DNA of 57,755 bases from Desulfobulbaceae bacterium. Lineage in GTDB: Bacteria; Desulfobacterota; Desulfobulbia; Desulfobulbales; VMSU01. Shown piece by piece: positions 11,068-44,087 of this stretch. Within the stretch, counting starts at the first letter, position 1. Each line of letters begins with the position of its first letter. The stretch covers positions 1 to 57,755 of the forward strand of contig JADGBM010000009.1 of the NCBI GenBank assembly GCA_015231515.1, in the 5' to 3' direction. A program made the position numbers and the translations under genes. Under the pieces are notes generated by a model. It did no database searches. It was not told the origin of the DNA and worked only from the letters and a program-made list of their open reading frames with translations.

Positions 11068-11589
11068 ATGTCCGAATACGAACCTTTTTTATCTGAAAAA
11101 ACAAGTGAGAGGATTGCTGTTTATCCCGGCAGCTTTGATCCGATTACGATGGGCCACCTTGATATCATCGAAAGAGCCTTGTATGTTTTCGATCGAGTTA
11201 TCATTGCTGTGGCTAGAAATCCCTCCAAAAAGGCGCTGTTTTCCCTTGAGGAGCGCCTTGAAATGATCAATAACTGTTTTCCTGAATCCAAGAACAATAT
11301 CCAGGTTGATTGGGTGGATGGACTTATTGTCGATTACGCCTATCGAAAAGGGGCCAGGGCGATTGTTCGTGGTATGCGTGCTGTTTCCGACTTTGAATTT
11401 GAATTTCAGATGGCGCTCATGAACAGAAGGCTTGAACGAGACGTTGAGACAGTTTTTTTAATGACCGGCTTTCGGTGGATATATATCAGTTCCAGTATTA
11501 TTAAAGACGCAGCTCGGCATGGTGGCGATATCAGTGGTCTGGTTCCAGACCACGTCTGTGAAAAGCTGCGTGAAAAATTTATGAAGTAA
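11068..11589 (+). CDS. coaD: Phosphopantetheine adenylyltransferase
   Basis: CoaD transfers AMP from ATP to 4'-phosphopantetheine, the penultimate step of CoA synthesis. The 173-residue protein has IAVYPGSFDPITMGHLDIIERA (about 16-37) containing the TxGH nucleotidyltransferase motif. It also has AIVRGMRAVSDFEFEFQMALMNRRL (about 97-121) and ISSSIIKDAARHGGDISGLVPDHV near the C-terminus. It carries about 12 more N-terminal residues than most homologues. An internal GTG codon for residue 17 or so is possible but has no better ribosome site. With panC and panD 8 kb upstream, three CoA genes lie in the window. Confidence 0.95.
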   Translation: MSEYEPFLSEKTSERIAVYPGSFDPITMGHLDIIERALYVFDRVIIAVARNPSKKALFSLEERLEMINNCFPESKNNIQVDWVDGLIVDYAYRKGARAIVRGMRAVSDFEFEFQMALMNRRLERDVETVFLMTGFRWIYISSSIIKDAARHGGDISGLVPDHVCEKLREKFMK

Positions 11590-11600
11590 CGGAACATTTT

Positions 11601-13835
11601 ATGGGCTTGACCAGAAGAGAGTTTTTAAAACATAGCGGACTAACTGCCAGCATGCTTCCTTTGGCCCGTTACGCAAATGCCGCTCAGCAAAATGATGGTT
11701 TGGCACCAGCAGGTGACCTGCTGGCCGAAGATGGGCAGCGCCTTCATTCTGTATGTGGTCTGTGCAAGGCAAAGTGCCTGATTACGGGCGTGGTTCAGGG
11801 TGGACGACTTATACGTATTGAGGGCAATCCTGAGTCACCATCGACAAACGGCAAGATATGTGCGCGGGGACTGGCTGCCACCAAAATGCTCTATGATTCC
11901 GATCGGTTGAAATACCCCTTAAAACGTGTTGGGGCCAGAGGTGAAGGGAAGTGGGCACGTATCGGCTGGGGAGAAGCTATTGATACAATTTTTCTGCACC
12001 TGGAGAAAACGCTTGCCCAGAAAGGGCCAGACGGCTTGGCCTTGTTCCATAATGGCTCATCCTCCCGGTACATCGATGAGCTTTTTGCAGACCTTGGTTG
12101 TCGGCACCGTAATGCCTCTTCTCAGGAGTTATGTCACAAAAATCAGGAGACTGCCTACGCCTTAACCGGACAAAAAATAGTTGATGGTGCTGGGGCCTTT
12201 GATGGAGCCCGCTGCATTGTTCTTTTAGGGTCACATTTTGGTGAAAATGTTCAGGTTCCCCTGTTGCGGAGTTTTTCCAAGGCCATAGCTCAGGGGGCTA
12301 AACTTGTTGTCGTTGATCCGCGGGTTTCTACTGTGGCTTCAAAGGCCGATTATCATCTGCTGATTCGACCCGGCACCGATACTGCGCTGTTATTGGGATG
12401 GTTGAAATATATTATTGAAGGTGGCCTCTATAATCGGGATCAGGTCAATAGACGGATATCGGATCTGGACCGTTTTCAGGATCAGCTTCGTGACTATAGT
12501 TTGACCGATATTGCCAGTATTTGTGATATTGAAGTCGCAGACATTAAGCGGACGGCTGAACTCATCGCCAGCTCGGCACCGGAAAGCGTTATTTATCCAG
12601 GTCAGTTTTCAGGCTGGTACGGTAATGATGTACAGCGCTTACGGGCTCAAGCTATATTGACCGCCATGGTTGGCTCGCCCAATGAGATTGCCCGAACTGT
12701 TGAGCCGATGTTGAGAACCCAAATTGCTGATCAGCAGGAAAAACTTTCGGCAACAATTTTTAGAAAAATTCTATCAGAGGATATAACCTTTATTACCTGT
12801 TGGGGGCAAAATCCTTTTCAGTCGGCAGTCAACCCATATCGCGTTCAGTCGGCCTTTGCAAAGGCTCAGTTTATAGTTACCTGCGATATCTATCCATCGG
12901 AAACTTCGTTATATGCGGATATAATCCTGCCGGAAGCAACCTTTCTTGAGCGCTCTGACGGTGCCGAAATTATCGAAACGGCAGATTTCCAGATTGTGGC
13001 GACCAAACAGCCTTTAGTTGAACCGCGTTTTGCTGTCAAAGATCCGTATTGGATAGTTAAGCAGCTCAGCTCCCGGCTTGGGAAAGGCGAAAATTTTCAT
13101 TTTGATTCGGTAGATGAACGAACTCAATTTGAAATGGCCGGTCTGGGTGTTTCATTGGTTGATATCAAGAAAAATGGTTTCGCGAGAATTCGGCCAACCA
13201 ACGGAGTTGCTGATGAGAGTGCTGACGCCTCGCCGGTTGTGCCAATCGCCCTGTTCTCTGTAGAGCTTCAGGAGAGAGGAGTGGCGCCGCTACCACTGTT
13301 TGAGCCTGTACAGCTCCCTCCTCCCGGGTATAGCCGTCTCGTCTCAGGTCGATCGCCTGTTCACTCGAATTCGACTACTGCGAATATCAGTTGGCTCTCT
13401 GAGGAAAACCCTGAGCCTGAACTTTGGCTTAATGATCGAGTGGCGAAGAAGTTAGGTGTTCACGATAATCAGTATCTCTTTCTGGAAAATCAGGATGGTA
13501 TTCGCTCTTTAAAGCCCGTGCGCGTCAAGGTTACACCTGGTATTCGGGTTGATACGGTATTTTTACCCCATGGGTTCGGCTGCAAGTCTCCATTTATGAC
13601 CAAGGCCTTTAACCATGGAGTTTCCGACGCCTCTCTGGTGACCAGATCCGTGCCTGACCCTGTTTCTGGAGTGCGAGGCATACGGTCTAACTTTGTGAGG
13701 TTTGTTAAAAACGGAGAGCCTCTTTCTATTCCAGACCTTGATAATCCTCCTGAAATTCTTAAACAGTACCAAAAGTGGTGGCTTGATTCGTTTGGTAGTT
13801 TTGAAAAAGGCGACCAGCGCAAGCTCTATGTCTGA
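11601..13835 (+). CDS. Tat-exported molybdopterin oxidoreductase with one 4Fe-4S cluster
   Basis: A 744-residue catalytic subunit of the DMSO-reductase superfamily. The N-terminus TRREFLKHSGLTASMLPLA (4-22) is a twin-arginine signal, so the enzyme works in the periplasm. C52, C55, C59 and C87 form a C-x2-C-x3-C-x27-C site for a 4Fe-4S cluster. C178 in SSQELCHKNQ sits where the polysulfide/thiosulfate/tetrathionate/arsenate-type enzymes have a Mo-ligating Cys (inference from position). The C-terminal molybdopterin-dinucleotide domain is about residues 600-720. The 3' end overlaps the Rieske gene by 8 bases. There is no PsrB-type ferredoxin subunit and no NrfD-type anchor; electrons probably pass via the Rieske protein and cytochrome b encoded next. 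The substrate cannot be told from sequence alone. Confidence 0.85.
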   Translation: MGLTRREFLKHSGLTASMLPLARYANAAQQNDGLAPAGDLLAEDGQRLHSVCGLCKAKCLITGVVQGGRLIRIEGNPESPSTNGKICARGLAATKMLYDSDRLKYPLKRVGARGEGKWARIGWGEAIDTIFLHLEKTLAQKGPDGLALFHNGSSSRYIDELFADLGCRHRNASSQELCHKNQETAYALTGQKIVDGAGAFDGARCIVLLGSHFGENVQVPLLRSFSKAIAQGAKLVVVDPRVSTVASKADYHLLIRPGTDTALLLGWLKYIIEGGLYNRDQVNRRISDLDRFQDQLRDYSLTDIASICDIEVADIKRTAELIASSAPESVIYPGQFSGWYGNDVQRLRAQAILTAMVGSPNEIARTVEPMLRTQIADQQEKLSATIFRKILSEDITFITCWGQNPFQSAVNPYRVQSAFAKAQFIVTCDIYPSETSLYADIILPEATFLERSDGAEIIETADFQIVATKQPLVEPRFAVKDPYWIVKQLSSRLGKGENFHFDSVDERTQFEMAGLGVSLVDIKKNGFARIRPTNGVADESADASPVVPIALFSVELQERGVAPLPLFEPVQLPPPGYSRLVSGRSPVHSNSTTANISWLSEENPEPELWLNDRVAKKLGVHDNQYLFLENQDGIRSLKPVRVKVTPGIRVDTVFLPHGFGCKSPFMTKAFNHGVSDASLVTRSVPDPVSGVRGIRSNFVRFVKNGEPLSIPDLDNPPEILKQYQKWWLDSFGSFEKGDQRKLYV

Positions 13836-14256
13836 CCATACGACACCTGCACAAACAACAAGACGCAGCACCCTCGTCAGTGGCGGTCGATGGCTGACGG
13901 CACTGGTCGTGGGCGCAACCCTTTACCCCTTTATACGTTTTATAAATTTTAAGCTCCCCAAGAAACCAGTTCACATACAGGTCAATAAAGATCTTGCTGT
14001 CGGTGCATTTCATCTTGATAAGGATTTTATTCTTTTTGTCGACGCACAAGGGCCCTGGGCAGTTTCTCGAAAATGTACGCACCTTGGCTGTAGCGTTTTC
14101 TATAATGAGACCAGCCAGCAACTCGTCTGCCCATGCCACCAGAGTAAATTTTCAGTTAAAGGCCTGAGGCTAGACGGACCTGCTGTGAAAAACTTACAAC
14201 GTTATGAAGTCAAGAAAATGACTGGCGACCAGAAGGGCTTCATTGTTACTGTTTAA
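13828..14256 (+). CDS. Rieske 2Fe-2S protein partnered with the molybdoenzyme
   Basis: A 142-residue protein with a twin-arginine, non-cleaved-looking N-terminal anchor (TTRRSTLVSGGRWLTALVVG, 10-30), as in quinol-oxidising Rieske proteins. The cluster site is complete: CTHLGC (83-88) and CPCH (101-104) supply C83, H85, C101 and H104 as ligands and C88/C103 as the disulfide. The ATG at 13828 lies inside the last codons of the molybdoenzyme gene, so the two are translationally coupled. A cytochrome b gene follows 78 bases on. Known bc1/b6f complexes add a cytochrome c1 or f; here the acceptor or donor partner appears to be the molybdoenzyme instead (inference). Confidence 0.9.
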   Translation: MSDHTTPAQTTRRSTLVSGGRWLTALVVGATLYPFIRFINFKLPKKPVHIQVNKDLAVGAFHLDKDFILFVDAQGPWAVSRKCTHLGCSVFYNETSQQLVCPCHQSKFSVKGLRLDGPAVKNLQRYEVKKMTGDQKGFIVTV

Positions 14257-14334
14257 AAGCAGAACATAACGATCTCCGCGCCTTTCTACTAGTGTCATTG
14301 TGGCCCATATCGTAGTCAACCAATTGTACCTATT

Positions 14335-15189
14335 ATGAATTTCTTTAAGAGTATCCTGTCAATTCAGTGGGGGGCAAAAAGTCTAGTAGCTCTCTATCTC
14401 TCGGTCTTTTCGGGTATTGCCGTCTCTTTGCACTATGACCCCGCTGCACCCTATTATTCTGCAAGCAGTTTGGATATCCTGGTCCCCTTTGGTGATTTTT
14501 GGCGATCACTTCACTTTTATGCAAGTCAACTCTTTGTTCTCTTTCTTGTTGTTCATCTGCTGGTTGTAATTGTTGAGGGCGAATTCAAGTCACTCACGCC
14601 GCGTCGGTGGACGCTGCTCATCTTAGCGTCTGCGGTAAGTATACTGCTTTTATTTACGGGCTATGTCTTGCGGGATGACGCAACCGGCAAAGCCGCAGGC
14701 GCTATTGCCGAAAATATCATGTTGTCTATACCTATTTTGGGCACTGCCGTTAACTCCCTTATTTTCTCAATGTCAGAGGTGGGGATGGGGCGTGTGTATG
14801 CAAACCATATGGTTGGCTTGTGCGTCTTGTGGATTTTTCTTTCCTGGGAGCACCTTAGACGATACACGGTGAATTGGCGAAACCATCCTTGGCTGGTTAT
14901 ACTGGTGATCCTGTTTTGCGCATTTGTAAAGGCGCCAATGGAACCGGATCAAGTAGGGGTGTTTCATATCAGTGGCCCCTGGTTCTTTATGGGCTTGCAG
15001 GAGATTCTCCGCTATATTCCACCTTTTTGGGCAGGCATAATCTGGCCGGGTCTGTTGATTATCGCTCTTATTTTTTTATATCCTCAATACAATCTAAAGA
15101 AGCCCCTTCTGATCTTTATCGGTTTCTGGTTTTTGCTCTATCTGGTTTTTTCGTTGATTGCCTTGAAAAATATCCTATCATTGACTTAG
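14335..15189 (+). CDS. b6-type cytochrome b with altered PEWY motif
   Basis: A 284-residue membrane protein with about seven to eight transmembrane helices. H60 and H74 (13 residues between) and H158 and H173 (14 between) are the bis-haem ligands; the 14-residue spacing in the second pair is the b6f pattern, the bc1 pattern being 13. The C-terminal part corresponds to subunit-IV-like helices, fused in one chain. The quinol-oxidation-site PEWY motif is represented by GPWF (214-217), so the catalytic Glu is missing, while a Glu occurs nearby in LQEILRY. Together with the Rieske and Mo proteins it should form a quinone-linked complex in the inner membrane. The stop at 15189 is followed by a 96-base gap. 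Confidence 0.88.
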   Translation: MNFFKSILSIQWGAKSLVALYLSVFSGIAVSLHYDPAAPYYSASSLDILVPFGDFWRSLHFYASQLFVLFLVVHLLVVIVEGEFKSLTPRRWTLLILASAVSILLLFTGYVLRDDATGKAAGAIAENIMLSIPILGTAVNSLIFSMSEVGMGRVYANHMVGLCVLWIFLSWEHLRRYTVNWRNHPWLVILVILFCAFVKAPMEPDQVGVFHISGPWFFMGLQEILRYIPPFWAGIIWPGLLIIALIFLYPQYNLKKPLLIFIGFWFLLYLVFSLIALKNILSLT

Positions 15190-32935: not shown

Positions 32936-34180
32936 ATGGATGAATTTTCTCCTAGCCAGCGAATTGTTATAACTGGTGTCGGCTTAGCAGCTCCAAATGC
33001 CTCTAACCTTACGCAGTTTCGTGAGAATCTTCTCGCCGGGCATGCTGAAATAGCGCAGATTGACCTTCGTTACGTCGGTAAAGTTCTTGCGGGTGTTTGT
33101 ACGTTTCCTGAGACTAAATATCGTAAGAAAAAAGATAATAAACGCGGCACCCGGGCTGGATGTCTTGGGGTCTATGCAGCTCACGAGGCCCTGGCCTGTG
33201 CAGGCATAGATTTTAGCGAATACGCTAAAGATCGAACAGGGGTCTATGTAGGCCTTACTGAGCATGGCACTGTTGAGACTGAAAATGAAGTCTATAATAT
33301 CAGCCAATTTGACTATAACGTAGACTATTGGACGCATCATCATAACCCCAGAACGGTTTTGAACAATCCGGCGGGGGAGATCACCATGAGCCTGGGAATT
33401 ACCGGGCCGCATTATTCAGTTGGCGCTGCCTGTGCTGCTGGGAACGCCGCTCTCATTCAAGGCGCTCAGATGTTGCGTCTTGGTGAAGTTGATCTGGCCT
33501 TATGTGGTGGTATTTCCGAATGTGTCGGTTCATTCGGGATTTTTGCCAGCTTTAAGGCTCAAGGCGCTTTGGCCTATCATGACGATCCAGTGCGGGCAAG
33601 TCGACCATTTGATCGCGATCGTAATGGTATTGTTATTTCAGAGGGCGCTGCTCTATATTGCCTTGAAACACTTGACCGCGCCCAAAAACGCGGTGCCAAG
33701 ATTTATGGTGAGATCATCGGCTGGGCGATGAATTCTGATGCCCGAGACTTTGTCCTGCCTTATGGGCCCCGTCAGGCTGAGTGTATTAATCTGGCCTTAA
33801 AACGTGCTGGTATCGTTGCCTCGAGTGTCGACATTGTCAATACGCATGCAACAGGGACAAAACAGGGTGACATTGAAGAGTGCAAGGCCCTTCGCGAAGT
33901 GTTTAAAGGATGTGACTCAACCTTTTTTAATAATACTAAGAGTGTGATTGGTCATGCCATGGGGGCGGCTGGTGGGTTGGAACTTGCCGGTAATCTGTTG
34001 GCCTTCGAAGATAATATGGTGCATCCAACCATAAATGTTGATGAAATTGATCCCGAATGTTATTTGCCGAATCTTGTTATAAATGAACCTGTTAGGCTCG
34101 ATACTGTAAACATCATTTTGAATAACTCTTTCGGAATGGTAGGAATTAATTCTGTGTTAATTGTCAGGAAACACTCCTGA
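32936..34180 (+). CDS. Beta-ketoacyl-ACP synthase, KAS II type (private FAS)
   Basis: A 414-residue condensing enzyme with the full catalytic triad: C166 in VGAACAAGN, H304 in VNTHATGTKQGD and H340 in VIGHAMGAAGG, so it is active rather than a chain-length factor. VITGVGLAAPNASN at the N-terminus and GIVISEGAALYCLE (about 231-244) fit FabF-like enzymes, yet the sequence around the active Cys (AACAAGN in place of TACASSN) is divergent. It opens a cluster with its own ACP, ketoreductase, dehydratase, enoyl reductase and OleABC, so it probably elongates a specialised acyl chain. A 71-base gap separates it from the ACP. Confidence 0.9.
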   Translation: MDEFSPSQRIVITGVGLAAPNASNLTQFRENLLAGHAEIAQIDLRYVGKVLAGVCTFPETKYRKKKDNKRGTRAGCLGVYAAHEALACAGIDFSEYAKDRTGVYVGLTEHGTVETENEVYNISQFDYNVDYWTHHHNPRTVLNNPAGEITMSLGITGPHYSVGAACAAGNAALIQGAQMLRLGEVDLALCGGISECVGSFGIFASFKAQGALAYHDDPVRASRPFDRDRNGIVISEGAALYCLETLDRAQKRGAKIYGEIIGWAMNSDARDFVLPYGPRQAECINLALKRAGIVASSVDIVNTHATGTKQGDIEECKALREVFKGCDSTFFNNTKSVIGHAMGAAGGLELAGNLLAFEDNMVHPTINVDEIDPECYLPNLVINEPVRLDTVNIILNNSFGMVGINSVLIVRKHS

Positions 34181-34251
34181 TCCCTAATCATTAAGGTACT
34201 AAAACTGCGAACTTAAAACTTAGATCATAATTTTCTAAGTGAGGAAATTGA

Positions 34252-34506
34252 ATGACACGTGATGATATTAGTGATGTAATCATTGAAATAATTCAGGATA
34301 TTGATGAGGATGCTGACATTAAGGGGTTAAACCCGGATGAACCCTTAAGGGATCAGCTTGATCTTGATTCAATGGATTTTCTCGACATAGTTATGGAGCT
34401 TAGAAAGCGTTATAAACTCCAAATTCCAGAAGAAGAGTACCCTGAACTGGCAACCTTAACTTCCTGCGTTAATTATCTGGAGCCTAAGCTTACCACAGTG
34501 AGATAG
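34252..34506 (+). CDS. Acyl carrier protein of the specialised FAS cluster
   Basis: An 84-residue acidic helical protein with the phosphopantetheine attachment Ser40 in LDLDSMDFLDIV (usual DSL, here DSM). Helix 3 region is YKLQIPEEEYPELATLTSCVNYL. It is more divergent than a housekeeping ACP and lies between a ketosynthase and a CrtI-like flavoprotein, which starts 3 bases after its stop. It should carry the growing chain of the cluster's product. GAGGAAATT just upstream of the ATG at 34252 is a good ribosome site. Confidence 0.9.
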   Translation: MTRDDISDVIIEIIQDIDEDADIKGLNPDEPLRDQLDLDSMDFLDIVMELRKRYKLQIPEEEYPELATLTSCVNYLEPKLTTVR

Positions 34507-34509
34507 TCC

Positions 34510-35913
34510 GTGTCTCATCCCCTTGTTATCATTGGCGGCGGCATGTCGGGTATTGCTGCTGCCATTCGTCACGCCCGTTTTGGGCAACCTACCCTTATTC
34601 TCGAACGGCATTCGCGCCCCGGTGGGTTAAATTCATATTATTACCGTCATGGCAGGCTCTTTGAAACAGGTCTGCACGCTATGACCAATTTTGCACGCCC
34701 AGACCAGAAGCGTGCGCCTTTAAATATCCTGCTCCGTCAATTAAAGCTTTCCAGAAAAAATTTTACCGCTTATCCGCAGTTCGGCTCTGAAATTAATTTT
34801 CCGCAGAGAGTTTTGCGGTTTTCAAATGATTTTAGCGAGTTACTTGATGATGTGCAGCGGGTTTTCCCGAAGGCTGTGGATGGTTTTAATAAACTTGCCG
34901 AACTGGTTAAGGGCTATGACCCTTTTCAAAACGGACCTTGGCTTTCGGCTCGAAAATGTTTGAACGAGTTGATTGATGATCAAGATCTTATTGAAATGAT
35001 ATTTTGCCCATTAATGTTCTACGGCAATAGCGAAGAGTCCGACATGGATTTTTCCCAGTTTGTTATTATGTTTCAAGCGATTTTTTTTGAGGGTTTCTTC
35101 CGTCCCTTCGGAACAATTAAAGATTTTCTTGCTGTTCTTTTAGACCAGTACAAATCTTTCGGTGGTGAGATCCGTTATCAGACCAGTGTCGATCGGCTTT
35201 GCCTGGAAGGCAATACGATTGTCGCTGTTCAAACCACTAACGGTGAGAAGATTTCATGCAGTAATGTCATCTCTACCATCGGTTTGCCTGGAACCAATAA
35301 GCTTTTGAGTCCTGAGCAAAATGAAAATGAAGAGTATGTCGGTAGGTTAAGTTTTGTCGAGTCGATTTACCTTGTGCCTAAAGCGCGTATGAAGACGATT
35401 AAAAATGATTCGACCTCTATCTTCTTTTCAACCGGATCAAAGTTTACCTACAGAAGACCACAGACCGCAGTTGATACGACCTCAGGAGTGATTAATTTTC
35501 CAGATAATTTTCATGGTGTGGCCTCAGAGGAGATGAGTCAGATTCGGGTGACCAATATGGCTAACTTCGATCTGTGGCTCCAGGCTGATGGTGGTGCCGT
35601 AAGGGGCGGGAATCGGTCACCGGCCTATGATAGCCTTAAGAAGAGATTTCAAGTGCAGTCTCTTGGAGCGGTTCAGAAAATTATCGGGGTCTTTGATGAT
35701 AGTATAGCGTTTGAAGACACCTTTACACCACTGACGATAGAGCGCTACACCTCAAAAGCAGCTGGGGCAGTTTACGGCAGTCCTGTTAGGGTTAAAGATG
35801 GCTTGACACCTTGTGATAATCTCTTCATTGCCGGCACTGACCAGGGTTTTCTAGGAATTGTCGGGGCAATGCTCAGCGGCGTAACAATGGTAAATAATCA
35901 TATCTTGCTTTAA
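34510..35913 (+). CDS. CrtI/phytoene-desaturase-like FAD oxidoreductase 1
   Basis: A 467-residue flavoprotein starting at a GTG, 3 bases after the ACP gene. The dinucleotide-binding motif IIGGGMSGIAAAIRHARF with the downstream LERHSRPGG (about 7-41) is of the CrtI/amine-oxidase type, and the C-terminal FIAGTDQGFLGIVGAMLSGV motif is the typical FAD-binding end of phytoene desaturases. There is no clear membrane anchor. Carotenoid genes are absent from the window. Given its place between ACP and fatty-acid enzymes, a desaturase or isomerase acting on an ACP-bound acyl chain is a reasonable inference. Codon use is like its neighbours. Confidence 0.88.
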   Translation: MSHPLVIIGGGMSGIAAAIRHARFGQPTLILERHSRPGGLNSYYYRHGRLFETGLHAMTNFARPDQKRAPLNILLRQLKLSRKNFTAYPQFGSEINFPQRVLRFSNDFSELLDDVQRVFPKAVDGFNKLAELVKGYDPFQNGPWLSARKCLNELIDDQDLIEMIFCPLMFYGNSEESDMDFSQFVIMFQAIFFEGFFRPFGTIKDFLAVLLDQYKSFGGEIRYQTSVDRLCLEGNTIVAVQTTNGEKISCSNVISTIGLPGTNKLLSPEQNENEEYVGRLSFVESIYLVPKARMKTIKNDSTSIFFSTGSKFTYRRPQTAVDTTSGVINFPDNFHGVASEEMSQIRVTNMANFDLWLQADGGAVRGGNRSPAYDSLKKRFQVQSLGAVQKIIGVFDDSIAFEDTFTPLTIERYTSKAAGAVYGSPVRVKDGLTPCDNLFIAGTDQGFLGIVGAMLSGVTMVNNHILL

Positions 35914-35992
35914 CCCTTCACCCTTCCACCCTTCCCCCTTCCCCCTTCACCCTTTACCCTTTACCCTTTACCCTTACCCCTTACCCTCCCTT
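35912..35992. repeat. C-rich imperfect tandem repeat (CCCTTTA/CCCTTCA units)
   Basis: About eleven units of CCCTT followed by 1-3 bases run from the stop codon of the first CrtI-like gene to 35992, including three consecutive CCCTTTA units near 35951-35971. The minus strand thus has many G3-G5 runs separated by 3-4 bases and could form G-quadruplexes. No coding potential. It occupies most of the gap between the two CrtI-like genes. Confidence 0.92.
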
Positions 35993-36121
35993 AGCTAACC
36001 CACCAGTTCTTCAGGCCACCTTGCTCTTTTGGCAGTCGAGTTCTGCATTATAGCCCTTTAAATCATGATCTATTTATGGTACAGAGCTGTATCAAATTTT
36101 GACTTAAAATACAGGGATTCC

Positions 36122-37528
36122 ATGGTTTACAACTCTATTGATGCTATAAATGATTCGTATGATGTAATTGTTATTGGTTCCGGCCTTGGTGGTCTTACTT
36201 CTGCAAATCGTCTTGCCAAAGCCGGGCACACAGTGTTGTTACTTGAACATCATCACCATATTGGTGGTTTGGCAACCTGGTTTAAGCGTAAAGGCCACAT
36301 CTTCGATATATCTCTGCATGGATTTCCTTACGGTATGGTGAAAACATGCCGCAAATATTGGAATCGTGCCATTATGGATTCCATTGTTCAGCTTAAGAAC
36401 ATTCGTTTTGTGAACCCGCAATTCTCCATAGAAACGACCTTTGATCGTCAGCACTTCTCAACCCTTCTCGAAAACGAGTTTAGGATTGATCGTGCGGTTA
36501 TTGAGCGCTTTTTTACAACTGTAGCCGGTATGAATTTTTTCGATGACAGAACCATGACCACCAGGGAACTGTTTGAGGAGTTTTTCCCCGGGCGCAGTGA
36601 TGTTCATCGTTTGCTCATGGAACCGATAACCTATGCCAATGGCTCAACCCTTGATGATCCTGCCATAACCTATGGCATCGTTTTTTCTAATTTCATGAAC
36701 AAGGGGGTTTTTACCTTTGAAGGCGGAACCGACAAACTTATTGGTATGATGGTCGATGAGGCTGAAAAAAATGGTGTGACATTCTGTACGCGAGCTCGAG
36801 CCGACAAGGTTGTCATCGAAAAGGGAAAAGTTCGCGGCGTTGAAGTTGCCGGAAAAGTGATAGCAGCAAAGGCGGTTGTCTCAAACAGCGGTATTATTAA
36901 TACAGTCTATGATCTGGCAGGCAAAGACGCTTTTCCAGCTGATTTTATAAAAGATTCTGATGCGGTACAGATCAACAACTCCAGCTGTCAGGTCTATATG
37001 GGGGTTAAAAAAGGTGAACGGATCGACGATATAGGCGATTTGATTTTCACCTCTGGATCTGAAGAGTTTGACTCCAATGAAATGCTGGACATGAACACTA
37101 AAAGCAGAACATTTTCATTGTATTATCCTAAAACACGACCGGGGCATGATCGATATACTATTGTTGCTTCGATGAATGCCCGCTACGATGATTGGGCATC
37201 TCTTGGAGACGTTGAATACGCCCAAGCCAAGAAACGAATGGAGCAAAAGGCGCTTGACGCCTTAGATAAATTTCTGCCGGGTATCAGAGATAAATGTGAT
37301 TGGGTTGAAGGCGCGACACCGAAGACCTTTAAGCGATACACTCTGCATAAGGGCGGATCGTCCTTTGGAACTAAGTTTGAGGGGCTCGATATCTCCAGGT
37401 CGATTTTCAAGTTTGTGCCGGGCTTATTTCATGTGGGTTCGGTTGGTATAATAATGTCTGGTTGGTTAGGTGCCATCAATTATGGCGTGATTGTTTCCAA
37501 TGATGTTGATGCCTATGTGCGCAGTTAG
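36122..37528 (+). CDS. CrtI/phytoene-desaturase-like FAD oxidoreductase 2
   Basis: A 468-residue flavoprotein with VIVIGSGLGGLTSANRLAKAGHTVLLLEHHHHIGG (about 15-49) as FAD-binding motif and, at the C-terminus, LFHVGSVGIIMSGWLGAINYG. It is clearly related to, but not a close duplicate of, the gene upstream; the active-site region differs. The ATG at 36122 with AGGG five bases upstream is preferred to the in-frame ATG at 36065, which would add 19 residues without family likeness. Two CrtI-like enzymes in one cluster suggest successive desaturation or isomerisation steps on the same chain (inference). Confidence 0.88.
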   Translation: MVYNSIDAINDSYDVIVIGSGLGGLTSANRLAKAGHTVLLLEHHHHIGGLATWFKRKGHIFDISLHGFPYGMVKTCRKYWNRAIMDSIVQLKNIRFVNPQFSIETTFDRQHFSTLLENEFRIDRAVIERFFTTVAGMNFFDDRTMTTRELFEEFFPGRSDVHRLLMEPITYANGSTLDDPAITYGIVFSNFMNKGVFTFEGGTDKLIGMMVDEAEKNGVTFCTRARADKVVIEKGKVRGVEVAGKVIAAKAVVSNSGIINTVYDLAGKDAFPADFIKDSDAVQINNSSCQVYMGVKKGERIDDIGDLIFTSGSEEFDSNEMLDMNTKSRTFSLYYPKTRPGHDRYTIVASMNARYDDWASLGDVEYAQAKKRMEQKALDALDKFLPGIRDKCDWVEGATPKTFKRYTLHKGGSSFGTKFEGLDISRSIFKFVPGLFHVGSVGIIMSGWLGAINYGVIVSNDVDAYVRS

Positions 37529-37617
37529 ATTCAGGGATTTTATGAGTTGCTGTTTAAAAAAAGAACTAAAACTCCGCACATAGTGCGCTAATTCAAAAAC
37601 TAAATTTCTTGGTTGAT

Positions 37618-38364
37618 ATGCAGATAAATATGGATTTTTCTGGACAGATTGCAGTTGTAACCGGGGCAACCAAGGGTATTGGTTTGGCCGTTACCCAGGC
37701 GCTTCTTGAGGCGGGGGCGACTGTTGTCGGTGTCTATGGCAGCGATACTGTTGCCGCCGGCATGGTCGCTAAAGATCTGGACGTTGGCGATCGATTACAG
37801 CTGTTCCAGTGCGATGTTTCCGATTATGCGCAGGTGACACAGCTCTATCAAAAAATTGAAGATCAGTATGAGAGCATCGATATTTTAATCAGCAATGCCG
37901 GAATTAGACGGGATTCTGTGCTTGCCATGATGCCCTATGAAGATTGGCAGCGGGTGATTGATGTCAACCTTACCGGCTCGTATTCCATGGCAAAACATGC
38001 TGTGATGCTGATGATGAAAAAAAAGTACGGTCGAATAATTTTTGTGACATCACCAATGTCCTATCTAGGATTTGCCGGACAGGCAAATTACTCAGCCTCA
38101 AAGGCAGGGCAGATAGGCATGATGCGTTCACTGTCAAAGGAAACCGCTAAGAGAAAAATCACGGTCAACTGTATTTCACCCGGGTTTATCGAGACGGATC
38201 TGATTGCCAATCTTAATGATGAGCAGATTAAGCAGTATCAAAAAATGGTTCCCCTGAAAAGATTTGGCAGACCAAGAGAAGTTGCTGACGCGGTCTTGTT
38301 TTTAGCAGGTAAAAACTCCGCTTATATTACCGGTTCTGTTCTGGAGATCAACGGTGGAATCTGA
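37618..38364 (+). CDS. 3-oxoacyl-ACP reductase, FabG type
   Basis: A 248-residue short-chain dehydrogenase. VVTGATKGIGLAV (about 13-25) is the NAD(P)-binding motif, ISNAGIRRDSVLAMM (about 88-102) the NAG motif, and YSASKAGQIGMMRSLSKE holds the Y-x3-K catalytic pair, preceded by the Ser in VTSPMS. LEINGGI at the C-terminus is typical of FabG. Starts at 37609 (TTG) and 37630 (ATG) are alternatives; I chose the ATG at 37618, with weak ribosome signal. Its end overlaps the dehydratase gene by 11 bases. It would reduce the 3-keto product of the cluster's ketosynthase. Confidence 0.9.
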   Translation: MQINMDFSGQIAVVTGATKGIGLAVTQALLEAGATVVGVYGSDTVAAGMVAKDLDVGDRLQLFQCDVSDYAQVTQLYQKIEDQYESIDILISNAGIRRDSVLAMMPYEDWQRVIDVNLTGSYSMAKHAVMLMMKKKYGRIIFVTSPMSYLGFAGQANYSASKAGQIGMMRSLSKETAKRKITVNCISPGFIETDLIANLNDEQIKQYQKMVPLKRFGRPREVADAVLFLAGKNSAYITGSVLEINGGI

Positions 38365-38779
38365 GATTTATGAGAGAATACCCCATAGACCACCATTTTT
38401 ATGGGTTGACAGAATTATCTCAATTGATAGTCAAACAATAGTCGCTGAAAAATATTTTGCACCGGATCTTGATATGTATGCTGGCCATTATCCGCATCAT
38501 CCAATTACCCCTGGTGTAATTTTATGTGAGGCAATTATTCAGGCAGGGGCAGTGTTGATTGCCGATATCTTGCAGAGAGAAGGTACGTCCGTTGAAGGTG
38601 TCCCGGTCTTGACTCGGATTTACGGTGCTCGATTTAAACGATCGATTAAACCCGGCGATACCGTTCGTCTTGTTGCGCATCTCAAAGAGGTTATCGGTGC
38701 AGCCTGGTTGCTCAAGGGTAAGGTGCTGGTTGAAGATAAAGTCGCGGTGTCACTTGATTTTGGTTGTACCATTACGTAG
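38354..38779 (+). CDS. 3-hydroxyacyl-ACP dehydratase, FabZ-like hot-dog protein
   Basis: A 141-residue hot-dog-fold protein starting at a GTG that follows GGAG by 7 bases, inside the end of the ketoreductase gene. IPHRPPFLWVDRI (about 9-21) and GHYPHHPITPGVILCEAIIQAG (about 44-65) correspond to the FabZ motif; H45 and E59 are the likely catalytic pair. It is followed by a 471-base stretch without genes. It provides the dehydration step missing from the rest of the set. Confidence 0.9.
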   Translation: MESEIYERIPHRPPFLWVDRIISIDSQTIVAEKYFAPDLDMYAGHYPHHPITPGVILCEAIIQAGAVLIADILQREGTSVEGVPVLTRIYGARFKRSIKPGDTVRLVAHLKEVIGAAWLLKGKVLVEDKVAVSLDFGCTIT

Positions 38780-38818
38780 CTTTTGAGTTTCCTAGCATAG
38801 GAATTTCCATTTTAGGCT

Positions 38819-39085
38819 AATTGAAATAAACCGCTCGCTTCGCTCAAGACACAGATAGCGCAGACTTCGGAGTACGCAGAGATTCTTTAGTTGATCTTTG
38901 CTATCGGGAGTTGCAATGACGTTTAAAAACATTTTTTGCCACAGAATCACACGGAAACACACTGACAACAGCTTTTTTTAGTTGTTCTCTGCGACCTCCG
39001 AAGTCGGAGTTTATGCCCTGTCGTTGAGGGTGCTATCTGCGTCTTTGCGGTGAAACAAAAGCTCGCACGCAGTGTGCTAAGCCAT
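38819..39085. repeat. Dispersed palindromic repeat, copy B
   Basis: The first 46 bases match copy A (19582-19627) at 43 positions, and 39041-39056 is identical to 19667-19682. Copy B is about 140 bases longer. Its inner arms 38863-38881 and 38987-39005 are inverted copies agreeing at 17 of 19 positions (core ACTTCGGAG). The tail GCTCGCACGCAGTGTGCTAA resembles the end of copy A. Confidence 0.85.
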
Positions 39086-39128
39086 TGTCAGAAAATAACC
39101 TGGCCGTTTCAGTGAGACAGATGGCATA

Positions 39129-39183
39129 AGGAGCCGTAAGGTATACATCCAAAGTAGCCATGTTGTTTTTTGACGGCTCCTAA
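39129..39183. repeat. Short repeat with inverted ends, partner copy at 53807
   Basis: AGGAGCCGT (39129-39137) and ACGGCTCCT (39173-39181) are exact inverted ends. The right half, 39155-39183 (TAGCCATGTTGTTTTTTGAC onward), matches 53807-53835 at 26 of 29 bases, so this unit is present at least twice in the window. Function unknown. Confidence 0.75.
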
Positions 39184-39250
39184 GTTCAAAATTTGTGGGC
39201 AAATCAGTAGATAACTGGTTTTGCTCTTTTTGGTAAATAGTTAAACATTT

Positions 39251-40072
39251 GTGGATAGATTTGACAGTATGAGTTTCCTTGGTATTGCAGAGAAGCGATT
39301 CGTTGTTTTTGGACTTGCCAATAAAAAGTCGGTGGCCTGCGCCATTGCCAGGATTCTAATTGATGAAGGCGCTGAGGTCATCCATGTGGTCCGCAGTGCC
39401 GAACGTCAGGAGACAGCACGTAAATTATTCCCGCAATCTCCTGTCTTTGTGTGTGATGTTGAGGAAGAAAAAAATATAATTCGTGTTCGTGACGAGATTG
39501 CAGCCTCTATCTCCGGCGATATTCATGGCATTGTTCACTCTATTGCCTTTGCCAATTACTCTGAGGGGATAAAGCCCTTCCACGAGACCCTGAAGGCCGA
39601 CTTCCTGCAGGCCGTTACTATATCCTGTTTTTCTCTACTCTCCATATGCAATCATTTTAAGACGCTGCTGGCCGATGATGCCTCGGTGGTGACTATCTCT
39701 ATCTCTTCCACCAGGATGGCGGCCGAGAATTATGGCTATATGGCGCCAATTAAAGCCGCCCTGGATTCATCCTTATGTTTTCTGGCTAAAAGTTTTTCAG
39801 ACTTTTCTAACGTGAGGTTTAATGCAGTCTGTCCGGGACTCTTAAAAACATCAGCTTCAGCCGGTATCCCTGGCTATGTTGATAGTTACCTCTATGCCGA
39901 GCAGGTTATTCCCCGCAAGAAAGGGGTTACAACAATGGAAGCTGCTAACCTGGCCGCTTTTCTCCTTTCGACTCGTTCGTCAGGGATCACCGCTCAAACT
40001 ATTGTTGTCGATGCCGGAATGTCACTTAACTTTTTCGATGCTGCAATTGTCTCCAGCGTGAACAGATCCTGA
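39251..40072 (+). CDS. Enoyl-ACP reductase, FabI-like
   Basis: A 273-residue SDR of the FabI class. [18 protein letters not shown] (about 18-35) matches the FabI-type nucleotide motif (usual GVANKRSIAWAIA), VHSIAFANY (about 95-103) corresponds to the HSIAFA motif, and [15 protein letters not shown] contains the Y-x6-K catalytic pair specific to FabI. It starts at a GTG (39251); an ATG at 39269 is possible, and neither has a clear ribosome site. It is 4 bases upstream of oleA, so the two are coupled. Its presence shows that at least some elongation rounds can be fully reduced. Confidence 0.87.
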
Positions 40073-40076
40073 AATC

Positions 40077-41105
40077 ATGCACTATTCTAAAGTATTCCTA
40101 CAAAGTTTCGGCTATGAACTGCCGCCCAATATTGTTACCTCTGAAGCACTTGAAGAGGAGCTTTCGCCGGTTTATAAACGCTTAAAACTGCCCAAAGGGC
40201 GTCTTGAGTTGATGAGTGGAATTAAAGAGCGCAGGTTTTGGGACAAGGGGATGCTGCCCAGTCAGGGCGCCGCACTTGCCGGCAAGAAGGCCATTGATAG
40301 TTCTGGTTTATCCCCTGAAGATATAGACTGTTTGATTTTTACTTCTGTGTGTCGAGATATGATGGAACCGGCTACCGCGGCCTTTGTTCACCACTCGTTG
40401 GGCCTTACAGATAAATGCCAGATTTTTGACCTGTCAAATGCCTGTCTGGGCTTTCTAAACGGTATGATAGTTCTGGCAAATATGATTGAACTTGGTCAGG
40501 TCAGACATGGCCTTATTGTGGCCGGGGAAACCGCTGAAGAGCTGGTTTATTCAACCATCAAGGCACTGCTTCAGGATGAGTCGCTGACCCGGAAATCTAT
40601 TAAACCCTCCTTCGCATCATTCACCATAGGTTCAGGAGCTGTTGCCTTAGTGCTTACAGGTGATCCTTCAGATTCAAGACATCGGTTACTTGGTGGCGCA
40701 TGTCGGGCCAATACCAGTCATAATGATTTGTGCAGAGGTGGTGATAACACCAGTGCTACCTTGATGGCAACTGATTCAGAAGAGCTTCTTAAGCGTGGTG
40801 TTGAAACTGCAGCCCTGGTCTGGCAGGATTTTCTTGCTGAGCTGAACTGGTCGTCCGGGCAGATCAGCCGTTTTTTTTGTCATCAGGTTGGCAGTGCCCA
40901 CGCAAGACTGTTGTTGGAAACACTGAGCATTGATCCCGTTAAAAATTTCGAGACTCTGCAGTTTCTTGGGAATGTTGGGTCGGTTTCGGCCCCAATAACG
41001 CTGGCTATGGGTGCGGAAAGTGGTGAGTTGCAGCCGGGAGATAAAGCTGCCGTTTTGGGAATTGGCAGTGGTATAAATTGTCTTATGCTGGGAATTGAAT
41101 GGTAA
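40077..41105 (+). CDS. oleA: OleA, head-to-head acyl-condensing thiolase
   Basis: OleA joins two long acyl-CoA (or ACP) chains by Claisen condensation to a 2-alkyl-3-keto acid. The 342-residue protein keeps the thiolase-like triad and OleA's extra base: C123 in LSNACLGFLNG, E97 in RDMMEPATAAF, H269 in FCHQVGSAH and N299 in LGNVGSVS. MSGIKERRFWDKGMLPSQGAA and GIGSGINCLMLGIEW at the C-terminus are typical of OleA rather than FabH. It overlaps oleB by 7 bases. With oleB and oleC downstream the call is firm. Confidence 0.92.
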   Translation: MHYSKVFLQSFGYELPPNIVTSEALEEELSPVYKRLKLPKGRLELMSGIKERRFWDKGMLPSQGAALAGKKAIDSSGLSPEDIDCLIFTSVCRDMMEPATAAFVHHSLGLTDKCQIFDLSNACLGFLNGMIVLANMIELGQVRHGLIVAGETAEELVYSTIKALLQDESLTRKSIKPSFASFTIGSGAVALVLTGDPSDSRHRLLGGACRANTSHNDLCRGGDNTSATLMATDSEELLKRGVETAALVWQDFLAELNWSSGQISRFFCHQVGSAHARLLLETLSIDPVKNFETLQFLGNVGSVSAPITLAMGAESGELQPGDKAAVLGIGSGINCLMLGIEW

Positions 41106-41974
41106 ACATGACGACCTTGCCCTATGGGTTCACACCTGAAACGCTCAGAGTCAATGGACAGACCATGTCTTATCTTGATGAGGGTAAGGGACCAGCACTC
41201 GTCATGGTGCATGGTAACCCCACCTGGTCTTATTACTACCGGAACCTGGTAACCAGACTTAAAGACAGATTTCGGGTGATTGTGCCGGATCATATTGGTT
41301 GTGGTTTGTCAGATAAACCGCAGGACTACGCCTACACCCTTGAAAATCATATAAACGCTCTGACAGAGCTTATTGAGCATCTTGGCTTAGATGAGGTTTC
41401 TCTGGTTGTTCATGATTGGGGTGGTGCCATCGGTTTTGGCTATGCTTCAAGGCATCCGTCGGCAATTAAATCCTTGGTTGTGTTAAATACGGCGGCCTTT
41501 CCTCTGTCCCGTATGCCAATGCGTATTGGTGTTTGCCGACTGCCTGTCGTCGGTGAGTTGCTGGTGCGTGGTCTGAACCTGTTTGCTGGTTTAGCTGTGG
41601 AGATGGCTGTTAAAAAACCCTTGTCGGATGAGGTTGCCAGTGGCTATCTGTATCCTTACGACTCCTGGCACAACCGTGTCGCTGTTCATCGTTTTGTCAT
41701 GGATATCCCGATGGGCCCAGAACATCAATCCTGGCCAACACTCACTGATATTGAGAAAAAGCTGCCACTTTTTAAAGAGACCCCGATGCTGCTCATCTGG
41801 GGCGGTAAGGATTTTTGTTTTAACGATCTGTTCTACGACCAGTGGCGTAAGCGGTTTCCTAAAGCCGAATACCATTATTTCCCTGAGGCCGGGCATTATG
41901 TGCTTGAAGATGCACTGGAGGAAGCCTGTTCGTTAATTGATGCTTTTTTCTCCAGCAACTGTATTAACGAATGA
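41099..41974 (+). CDS. oleB: OleB, beta-lactone decarboxylase (alpha/beta hydrolase)
   Basis: OleB releases CO2 from a beta-lactone to give the final internal alkene. The 291-residue protein resembles haloalkane dehalogenases: HGNPTWSYYYRNLV (about 39-52), nucleophile D106 in VVHDWGGAIGFG, acid D238 in WGGKDFCF and H266 in EAGHYVLED. The Asp nucleophile, rather than Ser, separates it from esterases. The ATG at 41099 lies in the end of oleA; an ATG at 41108 is an alternative. A 277-base gap with a palindromic repeat lies between it and oleC. Confidence 0.9.
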   Translation: MVNMTTLPYGFTPETLRVNGQTMSYLDEGKGPALVMVHGNPTWSYYYRNLVTRLKDRFRVIVPDHIGCGLSDKPQDYAYTLENHINALTELIEHLGLDEVSLVVHDWGGAIGFGYASRHPSAIKSLVVLNTAAFPLSRMPMRIGVCRLPVVGELLVRGLNLFAGLAVEMAVKKPLSDEVASGYLYPYDSWHNRVAVHRFVMDIPMGPEHQSWPTLTDIEKKLPLFKETPMLLIWGGKDFCFNDLFYDQWRKRFPKAEYHYFPEAGHYVLEDALEEACSLIDAFFSSNCINE

Positions 41975-42251
41975 TCCCATTCGCATAACGCTAAATAGTT
42001 ACCAAAAAGTAAATTAATTCTTAACACGAAGGACACTGAGGTCTCGAAGATGAACAGAAACAAGCTTTTCCTTCGTGCTCTTCGTGACCTTCGTGGTGCA
42101 ATTAGTGTTTTTATATATTTAGTTATCGGGGATTTTGTGAAGTCTTAAAATTGTTAGATTTGTCATTTCTGTAGTAAGAATCTAAAGCCCGCCAGCAAGG
42201 CGTTAAGTCCAAACGACTGCGGGAATAATACCTTATTGAGGCAAATATACC
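41975..42251. repeat. Intergenic palindromic repeat between oleB and oleC
   Basis: No gene is visible in this 277-base gap. From 42021 to 42100 it contains CACGAAGGACACTGAGG on one side and CTTCGTGCTCTTCGTGACCT plus TCGTGGTG on the other, which fold back on each other imperfectly. Such CACGAAG-type elements are common intergenic repeats in environmental bacteria. The rest is A+T rich, with a GAGG ribosome site at 42238-42241 for oleC. Confidence 0.7.
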
Positions 42252-43931
42252 TTGGCAACTATTGTGGGTGAAAATAGATCGGAAAACAAAGCTCTTGCCC
42301 AGAAAGGTTCTAATATCTCTTTCTCTCTCCTGTCCATATCCTCTCTACAACCTGATGCTGTTGCTCTGATTCACAAAAACAGCCAATGGACATTCTCGGA
42401 GATTGCGCACAACACAAAATTCTACAGCCGATTTTTGTCAACTCAAGGCATAAAAAAGGGTGACCGAGTCGTCTTGATGGTTACGCCCTCCATGGAGTTT
42501 ATCTGTCTGGCCTTTGCTCTGTTTGCCATTGGTGCTGTGGTAATTCTGATTGACCCTGGCATGGGCTATAAAAATCTCATTAACTGTGTCGGGGCTGTCA
42601 AACCTCGGGCCTTTGTGGGCATCCCTAAGGCACATATTTTCAAGCGCCTGTTTCCAAAACCATTTAAGACAGTTGCAATAAATATCTGCGTCGGCACTGC
42701 CTGGGGGATTTTAGGAAAGGAACTTCCTGGCATATCAAAAGCTCCGATACCAGAGCTCTGTCAGGCAGAAACCGCCGCCGACGATCTGGCGGCAATTATT
42801 TTTACAACGGGCAGCACCGGACCTCCAAAGGGTGTTCAGTATCAACACCGAATATTTCTGGCTCAGCTTGACCAGATTCACAACTTTTATGGGATTCGGG
42901 CGGGAGAGATCGATCAGCCGGCCTTTCCTCTCTTTGCCCTTTTTTCAATTGCCCTTGGCGCCCAAGTTGTCATTCCAAACATGGATCCAACTCGACCAGC
43001 TCAGGTGAACCCTGCCCGTTTTATCAGTACGATTAGTAACCATCAGGTTACCTATTCGTTTGGATCGCCCGCTATCTGGAACGTTATCAGTCGGTACTGT
43101 TTGAAAAATCAGATCCGTTTGCATTCGCTAAAAAAAGTATTAATGGCCGGTGCCCCGGTTTCCGGAGAGTTAATAGAACGTGTTCTGTCAATACTGCCGG
43201 AGGGCGCTGAGGTACATATTCCCTATGGTGCCACCGAATCGCTTCCCATAGTTTCTATCTCGGGCAGTGAGGTTGTTGGTAAAACCTGGCCTTTGAGCCG
43301 TGAGGGTAAGGGAACCTGTGTCGGTAAACAGCTGCCTGGCGTTTCCGTTAAAGTGATTGCAGCAGTCGAGGGGCCGGTTGAGTGCGTGAAAGGTCTGGAG
43401 TTGCGGCCTTATGAAGTAGGAGAGATTGTTGTTCAGGGTGAGGTGGTTACCCGGGCCTACGACAATAATGACGAGGAAAACAGGCATTCTAAAATCATCG
43501 AAACGGACGGGTTCTGGCATCGGATTGGAGATGTTGGCTATTTTGATGAATCCGGGTATCTTTGGTTTTGTGGACGCAAGGCCCACCGAGTGATAAGTGA
43601 ACACGGTATTTTGTATACGATCTGCTGTGAGGCGATTTTTAACCAACACCCGGCTGTGTTACGATCTGCTCTTGTTGGTGTTGGATCAGCTGGAAAAGAG
43701 CTGCCTGTTATTATTGTTGAGTTGGCTGAAAAAATTAATCAGCAGAAACTTTTTGAAGAGCTTGCCGTTATGGCGGCTAGATATGAACACACGGCCAGGA
43801 TAAAGCATTTTCTCTGTCATGACTCGTTTCCGGTCGATATACGACATAATGCCAAAATATTTCGTGAGAAGCTGGCTGTCTGGGCTGCTGGGCAAGTTTT
43901 TGCCAACGTACAAGAAAAAAAATCCCCCTGA
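42252..43931 (+). CDS. oleC: OleC, beta-lactone synthetase (acyl-AMP ligase family)
   Basis: OleC uses ATP to close the 2-alkyl-3-hydroxy acid to a beta-lactone. The 559-residue protein is an ANL-superfamily enzyme: IIFTTGSTGPPKGVQYQHR (182-200) is the AMP-binding P-loop, IPYGATESLPI (about 324-334) the A5 region, and GDVGYFDESGYLWFCGRKAHRV (about 424-445) the hinge. The order oleA-oleB-oleC is the classical one. It starts at TTG 42252, 10 bases after GAGG; a GTG at 42264 is possible. The stop codon lies inside a strong hairpin. The next gene is glucokinase, so oleD, the 2-alkyl-3-keto acid reductase, is not adjacent. Confidence 0.9.
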   Translation: MATIVGENRSENKALAQKGSNISFSLLSISSLQPDAVALIHKNSQWTFSEIAHNTKFYSRFLSTQGIKKGDRVVLMVTPSMEFICLAFALFAIGAVVILIDPGMGYKNLINCVGAVKPRAFVGIPKAHIFKRLFPKPFKTVAINICVGTAWGILGKELPGISKAPIPELCQAETAADDLAAIIFTTGSTGPPKGVQYQHRIFLAQLDQIHNFYGIRAGEIDQPAFPLFALFSIALGAQVVIPNMDPTRPAQVNPARFISTISNHQVTYSFGSPAIWNVISRYCLKNQIRLHSLKKVLMAGAPVSGELIERVLSILPEGAEVHIPYGATESLPIVSISGSEVVGKTWPLSREGKGTCVGKQLPGVSVKVIAAVEGPVECVKGLELRPYEVGEIVVQGEVVTRAYDNNDEENRHSKIIETDGFWHRIGDVGYFDESGYLWFCGRKAHRVISEHGILYTICCEAIFNQHPAVLRSALVGVGSAGKELPVIIVELAEKINQQKLFEELAVMAARYEHTARIKHFLCHDSFPVDIRHNAKIFREKLAVWAAGQVFANVQEKKSP

Positions 43932-43966
43932 ATCCCCCTTTGACAGGGGGACTCAGGGGGATTTTG
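43921..43966 (+). terminator. Strong hairpin overlapping the oleC stop, terminator or repeat
   Basis: AATCCCCCTGAATCCCCC (43921-43938) and GGGGGACTCAGGGGGATT (43946-43963) pair at 17 of 18 positions around a 7-base loop, followed by TTG. The oleC stop TGA (43929-43931) is inside the left arm. Similar CCCCCTNAATCCCCC elements are dispersed repeats in many genomes, so this may be such a repeat serving as terminator. Confidence 0.75.
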
Positions 43967-44087
43967 TAAAGGTTGTTAAATGCTCACATGTCTCGATGCT
44001 TAAAAAAAGATCTAAAGTGTAGCGCTAATCAGGCGAGGAGTCGATGAGTATTGAGATAGTAAATTGGATATCGGGAGTGACGCGGTT

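Follow-up and report, generated by a model that had tools for sequence, protein, structure and literature searches.

A PsrA/PhsA-branch molybdenum subunit encoded together with a Rieske/cytochrome b pair in Desulfobulbales

Introduction

In a 2008 survey, the Psr/Phs, Ttr, Arr and Unk enzymes all possessed a tetracubane iron-sulfur (FeS) subunit together with a C subunit in the membrane, and AioAB had no cytochrome b and passed its electrons to soluble carriers (PMC2500031). The haloarchaeal nitrate reductase is encoded with a Rieske/cytochrome b module and its activity is inhibited by antimycin A (PMC4683180). In cable bacteria, a Rieske/CytB “partial complex III” devoid of cytochrome c1 has been proposed to oxidise quinol (PMC13047784, PMC12093952). 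In this work, we analysed a stretch of 57,755 nucleotides (nt) from a Desulfobulbaceae bacterium (assembly GCA_015231515.1, contig JADGBM010000009.1, forward strand; hereafter the window), which encodes a molybdenum (Mo) subunit of the PsrA/PhsA branch followed by a Rieske protein and a cytochrome b. No description of a PsrA-branch Mo subunit associated with a Rieske/cytochrome b pair was found in searches of an open-access library, which does not cover subscription papers.

Our preferred reading, held tentatively and at somewhat less than an even chance, is that this trio forms a periplasm-facing menaquinol:substrate oxidoreductase of two modules, in which the Rieske head would feed the Mo subunit and the latter would reduce a periplasmic substrate.

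Results

The three genes are co-directional on the + strand and follow leuA-asd-rsmD-coaD. They encode the Mo subunit (11601..13835, 744 amino acids (aa)), the Rieske [2Fe-2S] protein (13828..14256, 142 aa, with an N-terminal anchor of the twin-arginine translocation (Tat) type) and the cytochrome b (14335..15189, 284 aa). The Rieske gene begins, with its ATG, before the Mo gene has ended, and the two overlap by 8 nt, in accordance with the coupling described in an earlier note made from the same DNA. The 78 nt between the Rieske and cytochrome b genes showed no terminator-like site. The locus has neither a PsrB nor an NrfD gene, as the same note had observed, and the operon contains no c-type cytochrome gene that could supply the cytochrome c1 or cytochrome f partner of a canonical bc1 or b6f complex. 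Genome-wide, we found a single Rieske protein and a single cytochrome b of the kind that carries GPWF at the quinol-oxidation (Qo) motif. The upstream neighbour coaD (11068..11589, +) is conserved by synteny across the order and is regarded here as context, outside the complex.

The Mo subunit matched the Pfam families Molybdopterin (PF00384, 1.4e-32), Molybdop_Fe4S4 (PF04879, 7e-11) and Molydop_binding (PF01568, 5e-14). Its best relative of solved structure is the polysulfide reductase subunit PsrA of Thermus (2vpw; E 6e-111, 375 bits), and its structure model (a single chain, as were all our models; mean predicted local distance difference test (pLDDT) 74.6) superimposed on 2vpw with Z 34.9 over 646 residues, a root-mean-square deviation (rmsd) of 3.1 and 33% identity. 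The NCBIfam PhsA equivalog scored 338 bits, below its cut-off of 694, and 318-387 bits with the relatives; the Mo tree also placed the protein among PhsA-like paralogues. By sequence, fold and tree, it thus groups with the PsrA/PhsA branch of the bis(molybdopterin guanine dinucleotide) (bis-MGD) oxidoreductases, and not with DmsA, Fdh, Nap or Nar. The features reported in the earlier note are all present: (i) the twin-arginine pair R5-R6 of the predicted Tat signal (11613..11618, +) is invariant in 24/24 aligned orthologues, (ii) so are the four Cys of the [4Fe-4S] motif C52-x2-C55-x3-C59-x27-C87 (11754..11861, +), and (iii) the presumed Mo ligand C178 (12132..12134, +) occupies the position of the PsrA active-site Cys in the alignment with 2vpw. 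Position 178 is Cys in the orthologues linked to coaD and in those standing alone, bar one fragment at a contig end, and Ser or Asn in a sub-clade linked to coaBC. About 100 positions of the protein are invariant and are distributed across all molybdopterin domains.

Other molybdoenzyme families fitted poorly. NarG, which works with NarH, belongs to the type II enzymes and has a His among its cluster ligands (PMC8301774), and a NarG-like identity, archaeal NarG included, was rejected, as the Mo subunit has four Cys instead of His-xxx-Cys and scored 36 bits with TIGR01580 (cut-off 1084). The AioA profile TIGR02693 gave 41 bits (cut-off 359) and the QrcB equivalog 117.6 bits (cut-off 440).

Seventeen Mo proteins that belong to a trio or stand alone formed a single clade (support 100/100) within the PhsA-like paralogues, and the main sub-clades of the Mo tree reappeared in the cytochrome b tree. 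The earlier note would have been contradicted by a Mo subunit placed in a well-studied clade provided with partners of its own; the trio clade came out separate, although its relatives are well studied. The nearest paralogues tested are accompanied by a Fer4 subunit and a chaperone of the TorD/NarJ type, or by Fer4 and NrfD. Neither the FeS subunit (tetracubane B) nor a C subunit of the NrfD or cytochrome b type was present at the window locus or at the trio loci read. A scan of the genome_contigs set retrieved four Mo relatives. Searches of viral contigs returned nothing, and plasmids yielded only distant Mo enzymes and one weak cytochrome b match.

The Rieske protein (PF00355, E 3e-10) has both ligand boxes, CTHLGC and CPCH, in the cluster loops C83-T-H85-L-G-C88 and C101-P-C103-H104 (14074..14139, +), and it retains S106 and the disulfide Cys pair, with F108 at the Tyr position of bc1. 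In the cytochrome b (PF00033/PF13631), the haem b ligands H60/H74 and H158/H173 (14512..14853, +; codons at 14512, 14554, 14806 and 14851) are invariant in 35/35 sequences and stand 14 and 15 residues apart, which is the b6-type spacing. Its AlphaFold model (pLDDT 80.5) matched the cytochrome b of bc1 from end to end (Z ~16-21, 264-279 residues, rmsd 3.6-5.1); therefore the b6-like spacing noted earlier holds, but the protein corresponds to b6 fused with a subunit-IV-like part in a single chain, and not to b6 alone. The pair thus shows the marks of the Rieske/cytochrome b (bc1/b6f) superfamily, namely the CxHxGC and CPCH boxes, two haem b sites each with a His pair and, in the cytochrome b, the full-length fold; the cofactor ligands are invariant. 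The best NCBIfam match of the cytochrome b was ExtP (81 bits), below the cut-off of 290 for membership.

At the Qo position, where PEWY would be expected, the cytochrome b reads GPWF (residues 214-217; 14974..14985, +), followed by the invariant Q222-E223. GPWF was invariant in 35/35 cytochrome b sequences of the order and recurred in relatives elsewhere in the phylum, being identical whether the pair lacks a Mo gene or is accompanied by a nonahaem cytochrome. The motif is PPWY, PAWY or APWY, likewise without the Glu, in the other cytochromes b of the order. The Qo motif is known to vary systematically across the superfamily, in correlation with quinone type and potential (PMC9162462, a review), so the absence of PEWY does not exclude superfamily membership. 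GPWF is consequently a signature of this cytochrome b family, not a peculiarity of the Mo operon, and the loss of the Glu alone is no sign of reversed or altered quinone chemistry; we discarded that proposal of the earlier note. The conserved residues close to the motif are R113, D115, E126 (34/35), Q222 and E223, and as a suggestion from the alignment E126 or E223 might substitute for the missing Glu. Variants were seen in genomes of the same order: L164 (538-3418) encodes a 305-aa cytochrome b with GPWY, overlapped by an open reading frame (ORF) with 11 CXXCH motifs, and loci L159, L163 and L165 hold clusters of a Rieske-size gene and a PPWY or PAWY cytochrome b, alongside two multihaem cytochrome genes, one of them with five CXXCH motifs. 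At L084 (5575-6429) and L085 (3718-4647) a GPWF cytochrome b is present and the Rieske motif is absent from the surrounding 10-12 kb.

We then counted these genes, from match tables, in a sample of 258 genomes of Desulfobulbales. Cytochrome b orthologues with strong scores were found in ~196/258 genomes and full-length or near-full Mo orthologues (at least 350 bits) in 24/258; the three genes occur together in 17 genomes, a conservation far beyond chance. The commonest arrangement is rsmD-coaD-Rieske-cytochrome b, with no Mo gene. The trio is found at two sites, downstream of coaD and, in a sub-group of family f3 (genera g23, g67 and g69), downstream of coaBC. Depending on the lineage, it adjoins one or the other of these genes of coenzyme A biosynthesis (L064:3090-6475, L069:4933-8315). 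At locus L079, a C-terminal Mo remnant persists between coaD and the Rieske gene, so the Mo gene was lost there. Mo presence mapped on the cytochrome b tree required six changes, which fits repeated Mo loss, short of proof. The ratios of nonsynonymous to synonymous substitution rates (dN/dS) in trio-bearing pairs show purifying selection, at 0.11-0.19 (Mo), 0.03-0.15 (Rieske) and 0.09-0.16 (cytochrome b), and those of Mo genes standing alone were 0.13-0.22. No residue of the Rieske protein or the cytochrome b held up as tied to Mo presence. Rieske positions 101 and 108 (alignment numbering, which runs one higher than the protein residue numbers) were considered as Mo-tracking residues and rejected, since they follow the clade: in L074 and L079, which lack Mo, the tip is unchanged from that of the Mo-bearing relatives.

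In a sample of the whole phylum, the cytochrome b family was detected (E <= 1e-25) in 33/297 genomes. Among twenty of these loci that were read, no relative of the window Mo subunit adjoined the Rieske/cytochrome b pair, and at six (L102, L112-L116) the gene after cytochrome b encodes another cytochrome, with nine CXXCH motifs. Four of these nonahaem neighbours scored 214-245 bits against ExtM and a fifth (L113) 233 bits, with a cut-off of 800. The pair is thus the constant element and its third partner the variable one. An apparent fusion of cytochrome b and nonahaem cytochrome in L102 was rejected as a frame artefact; these are two adjacent genes. In L112 (5339-11136), the Rieske-cytochrome b-nonahaem cluster lies ~2.3 kb from rsmD-coaD, which hints at an old linkage.

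Two further regions of the window deserve mention. On the + strand, positions 32936-45107 carry a ketosynthase, two CrtI-like flavin (FAD) oxidoreductases, short-chain dehydrogenases/reductases, a gene like ketoacyl synthase III, an alpha/beta hydrolase and an AMP ligase, a run reminiscent, judged by eye from the ORF translations, of ole-type clusters for hydrocarbons or polyene lipids. On the minus strand, 47621-48259 encodes a c7-type multihaem cytochrome, a possible periplasmic electron carrier.

Discussion

In the menaquinol:substrate oxidoreductase that we tentatively propose, module one would be the compact two-gene Rieske/cytochrome b of the GPWF family, present in most Desulfobulbales, which would oxidise menaquinol at Qo. 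The fold, the haem ligands and the Rieske ligands lead us to infer a Q-cycle type of split, in which the Rieske cluster would receive one electron and haems bL/bH the other. Module two would be the Tat-exported bis-MGD subunit, whose [4Fe-4S] cluster would take electrons by direct contact with the Rieske head, in place of the tetracubane FeS subunit, and which would then reduce a two-electron substrate in the periplasm. The gene overlap, the presence of the trio in 17 genomes and at two loci, the single Mo clade, the recurring sub-clades, the lack here of the FeS/NrfD subunits of the paralogues, the single Rieske protein and single cytochrome b of this kind in the genome, the low dN/dS of all three genes and the invariant cofactor ligands suggest such an association. 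Quinol oxidation is favoured as the direction because the cytochrome b keeps all its haem ligands and the pair is widespread without Mo, and the quinol oxidation proposed for the Rieske/CytB of cable bacteria may be taken as support by analogy.

The choice of substrate would depend on potentials. Those of polysulfide and thiosulfate are ~-260 mV and ~-400 mV, respectively. Menaquinone lies near -80 mV (PMC4683180). AioB Rieske proteins, which have Phe, show midpoint potentials of +130 to +225 mV; in the bc1 Rieske protein, exchanging Tyr and Phe makes a difference of 45-70 mV (PMC3758308). By analogy, the Rieske protein of the trio should be found at ~+0.1 to +0.25 V. Polysulfide and thiosulfate are difficult to reduce from a Rieske cluster so positive, so with flow from quinol to Mo a fairly oxidising oxyanion of S, As or Se, or an N- or S-oxide, would be the more likely substrate. 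If the substrate were a reduced sulfur compound, electron flow should be opposite, as in AioAB.

This opposite direction, which we consider unlikely, would have the Mo subunit oxidise reduced S or As species and the Rieske protein collect the electrons for a periplasmic cytochrome, or for the quinone pool via cytochrome b. AioAB is a precedent for the pairing of a Mo subunit and a Rieske protein, the PsrA/PhsA relatives act on sulfur compounds, and Desulfurivibrio, known for sulfide oxidation, keeps the Mo subunit. However, the intact haem ligands and full-length bc1 fold of the cytochrome b suit quinol oxidation, AioA is distant in sequence from the trio Mo subunit, and GPWF, being shared with Mo-free pairs, cannot be used as a sign of reversal.

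Several observations weigh against a functional complex of the three proteins. Desulfurivibrio keeps the Mo gene under purifying selection with no Rieske/cytochrome b beside it (G222 and DSDS01000026, which are one 3290-base contig), and in one other lineage (G027) the Mo gene also stands alone. Most Rieske/cytochrome b pairs of the order have no Mo gene, the same-family genomes G004 and G006 have the cytochrome b and no Rieske gene in the 10-12 kb read, and the tip residues of the Rieske protein did not change upon Mo loss. The parts can, in short, separate. The three could then be mere neighbours: the Mo subunit a soluble periplasmic oxidoreductase working with c-type cytochromes, and the Rieske/cytochrome b an independent partial complex III downstream of coaD. 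The lineages with either part alone, the dN/dS of the solo Mo genes and the lack of any Rieske or cytochrome b residue tied to Mo loss are in line with this account, which we also think improbable, to the same degree as reversed flow. It is opposed by the complete trio at a second locus, the 8-nt overlap in the window, the sub-clades recurring between the Mo and cytochrome b trees and the missing FeS subunit at trio loci. The earlier claim that the Rieske/cytochrome b pair replaces the usual quinone module is accordingly favoured by the paralogues, which carry the FeS/NrfD subunits that the trio lacks, and weakened by the separate occurrence of Mo gene and pair.

Finally, a metal-free structural subunit that would serve only as an electron relay connecting a periplasmic carrier with the Rieske/cytochrome b, on the model of QrcB, which lacks the cofactor (PMC6303296), is very unlikely: QrcB is a recognisable relative (118-151 bits) and the coaBC-linked clade has lost the Cys ligand, but the PhsA profile far outscores QrcB, and the Cys retained elsewhere and the invariant positions throughout the molybdopterin domains argue against it.

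A more far-reaching form of the menaquinol:substrate oxidoreductase, about which we are more doubtful, would be a PsrA-branch molybdoenzyme seated directly on the Rieske head within a complex of the Q-cycle type. Such a quinol:substrate reductase would conserve energy, its module of the complex III kind passing electrons directly to a terminal Mo reductase; its Qo site would be Glu-less and its terminal subunits interchangeable, either the Mo protein or the nonahaem cytochrome. The Rieske/cytochrome b pair looks like a swappable power unit. A PsrA-branch enzyme with such a pair would extend the bacterial redox “construction kit” and gives one of these pairs a candidate partner. Furthermore, the Mo-bearing, Mo-free and nonahaem-bearing versions constitute a natural experiment that bears on the way in which terminal enzymes are added to complex III, and the invariant Glu-less Qo motif offers a defined test of the need for the Glu.

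Among known systems, PsrABC of Thermus and PhsABC of enterobacteria resemble the trio in the sequence and fold of the Mo subunit, the four-Cys cluster and the aligned Mo-ligand Cys, whereas the trio has Rieske and cytochrome b in place of the tetracubane PsrB and of NrfD/PhsC. In the Ext locus of Geobacter (ExtO Rieske, ExtP cytochrome b, ExtM multihaem cytochrome; PMC5877670), ExtP is the best family match of our cytochrome b and ExtM is matched by the nonahaem neighbours, but all scores fall below the curated cut-offs and ExtP, at ~205 aa (model length), is too short for the GPWF-bearing part. No Mo subunit has been described with the cable-bacteria pair, which is likened to ours by its description, not by its sequence, as a Rieske protein and a cytochrome b without cytochrome c1. 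The haloarchaeal respiratory nitrate reductase differs, as the trio Mo subunit has four Cys, belongs to the PsrA branch and has no NarH-like partner; the earlier analogy with it is nonetheless a fair one in the sense of “works like”, though not of kinship with NarG, since in both cases a Mo enzyme is genetically linked to a Rieske/cytochrome b module. With AioAB, lastly, the Mo subunits are distant relatives (23-24 bits for AioA versus 375 for PsrA), and the likeness lies in the pairing of the Mo subunit with a Rieske protein and in the Phe that replaces Tyr in both Rieske proteins.

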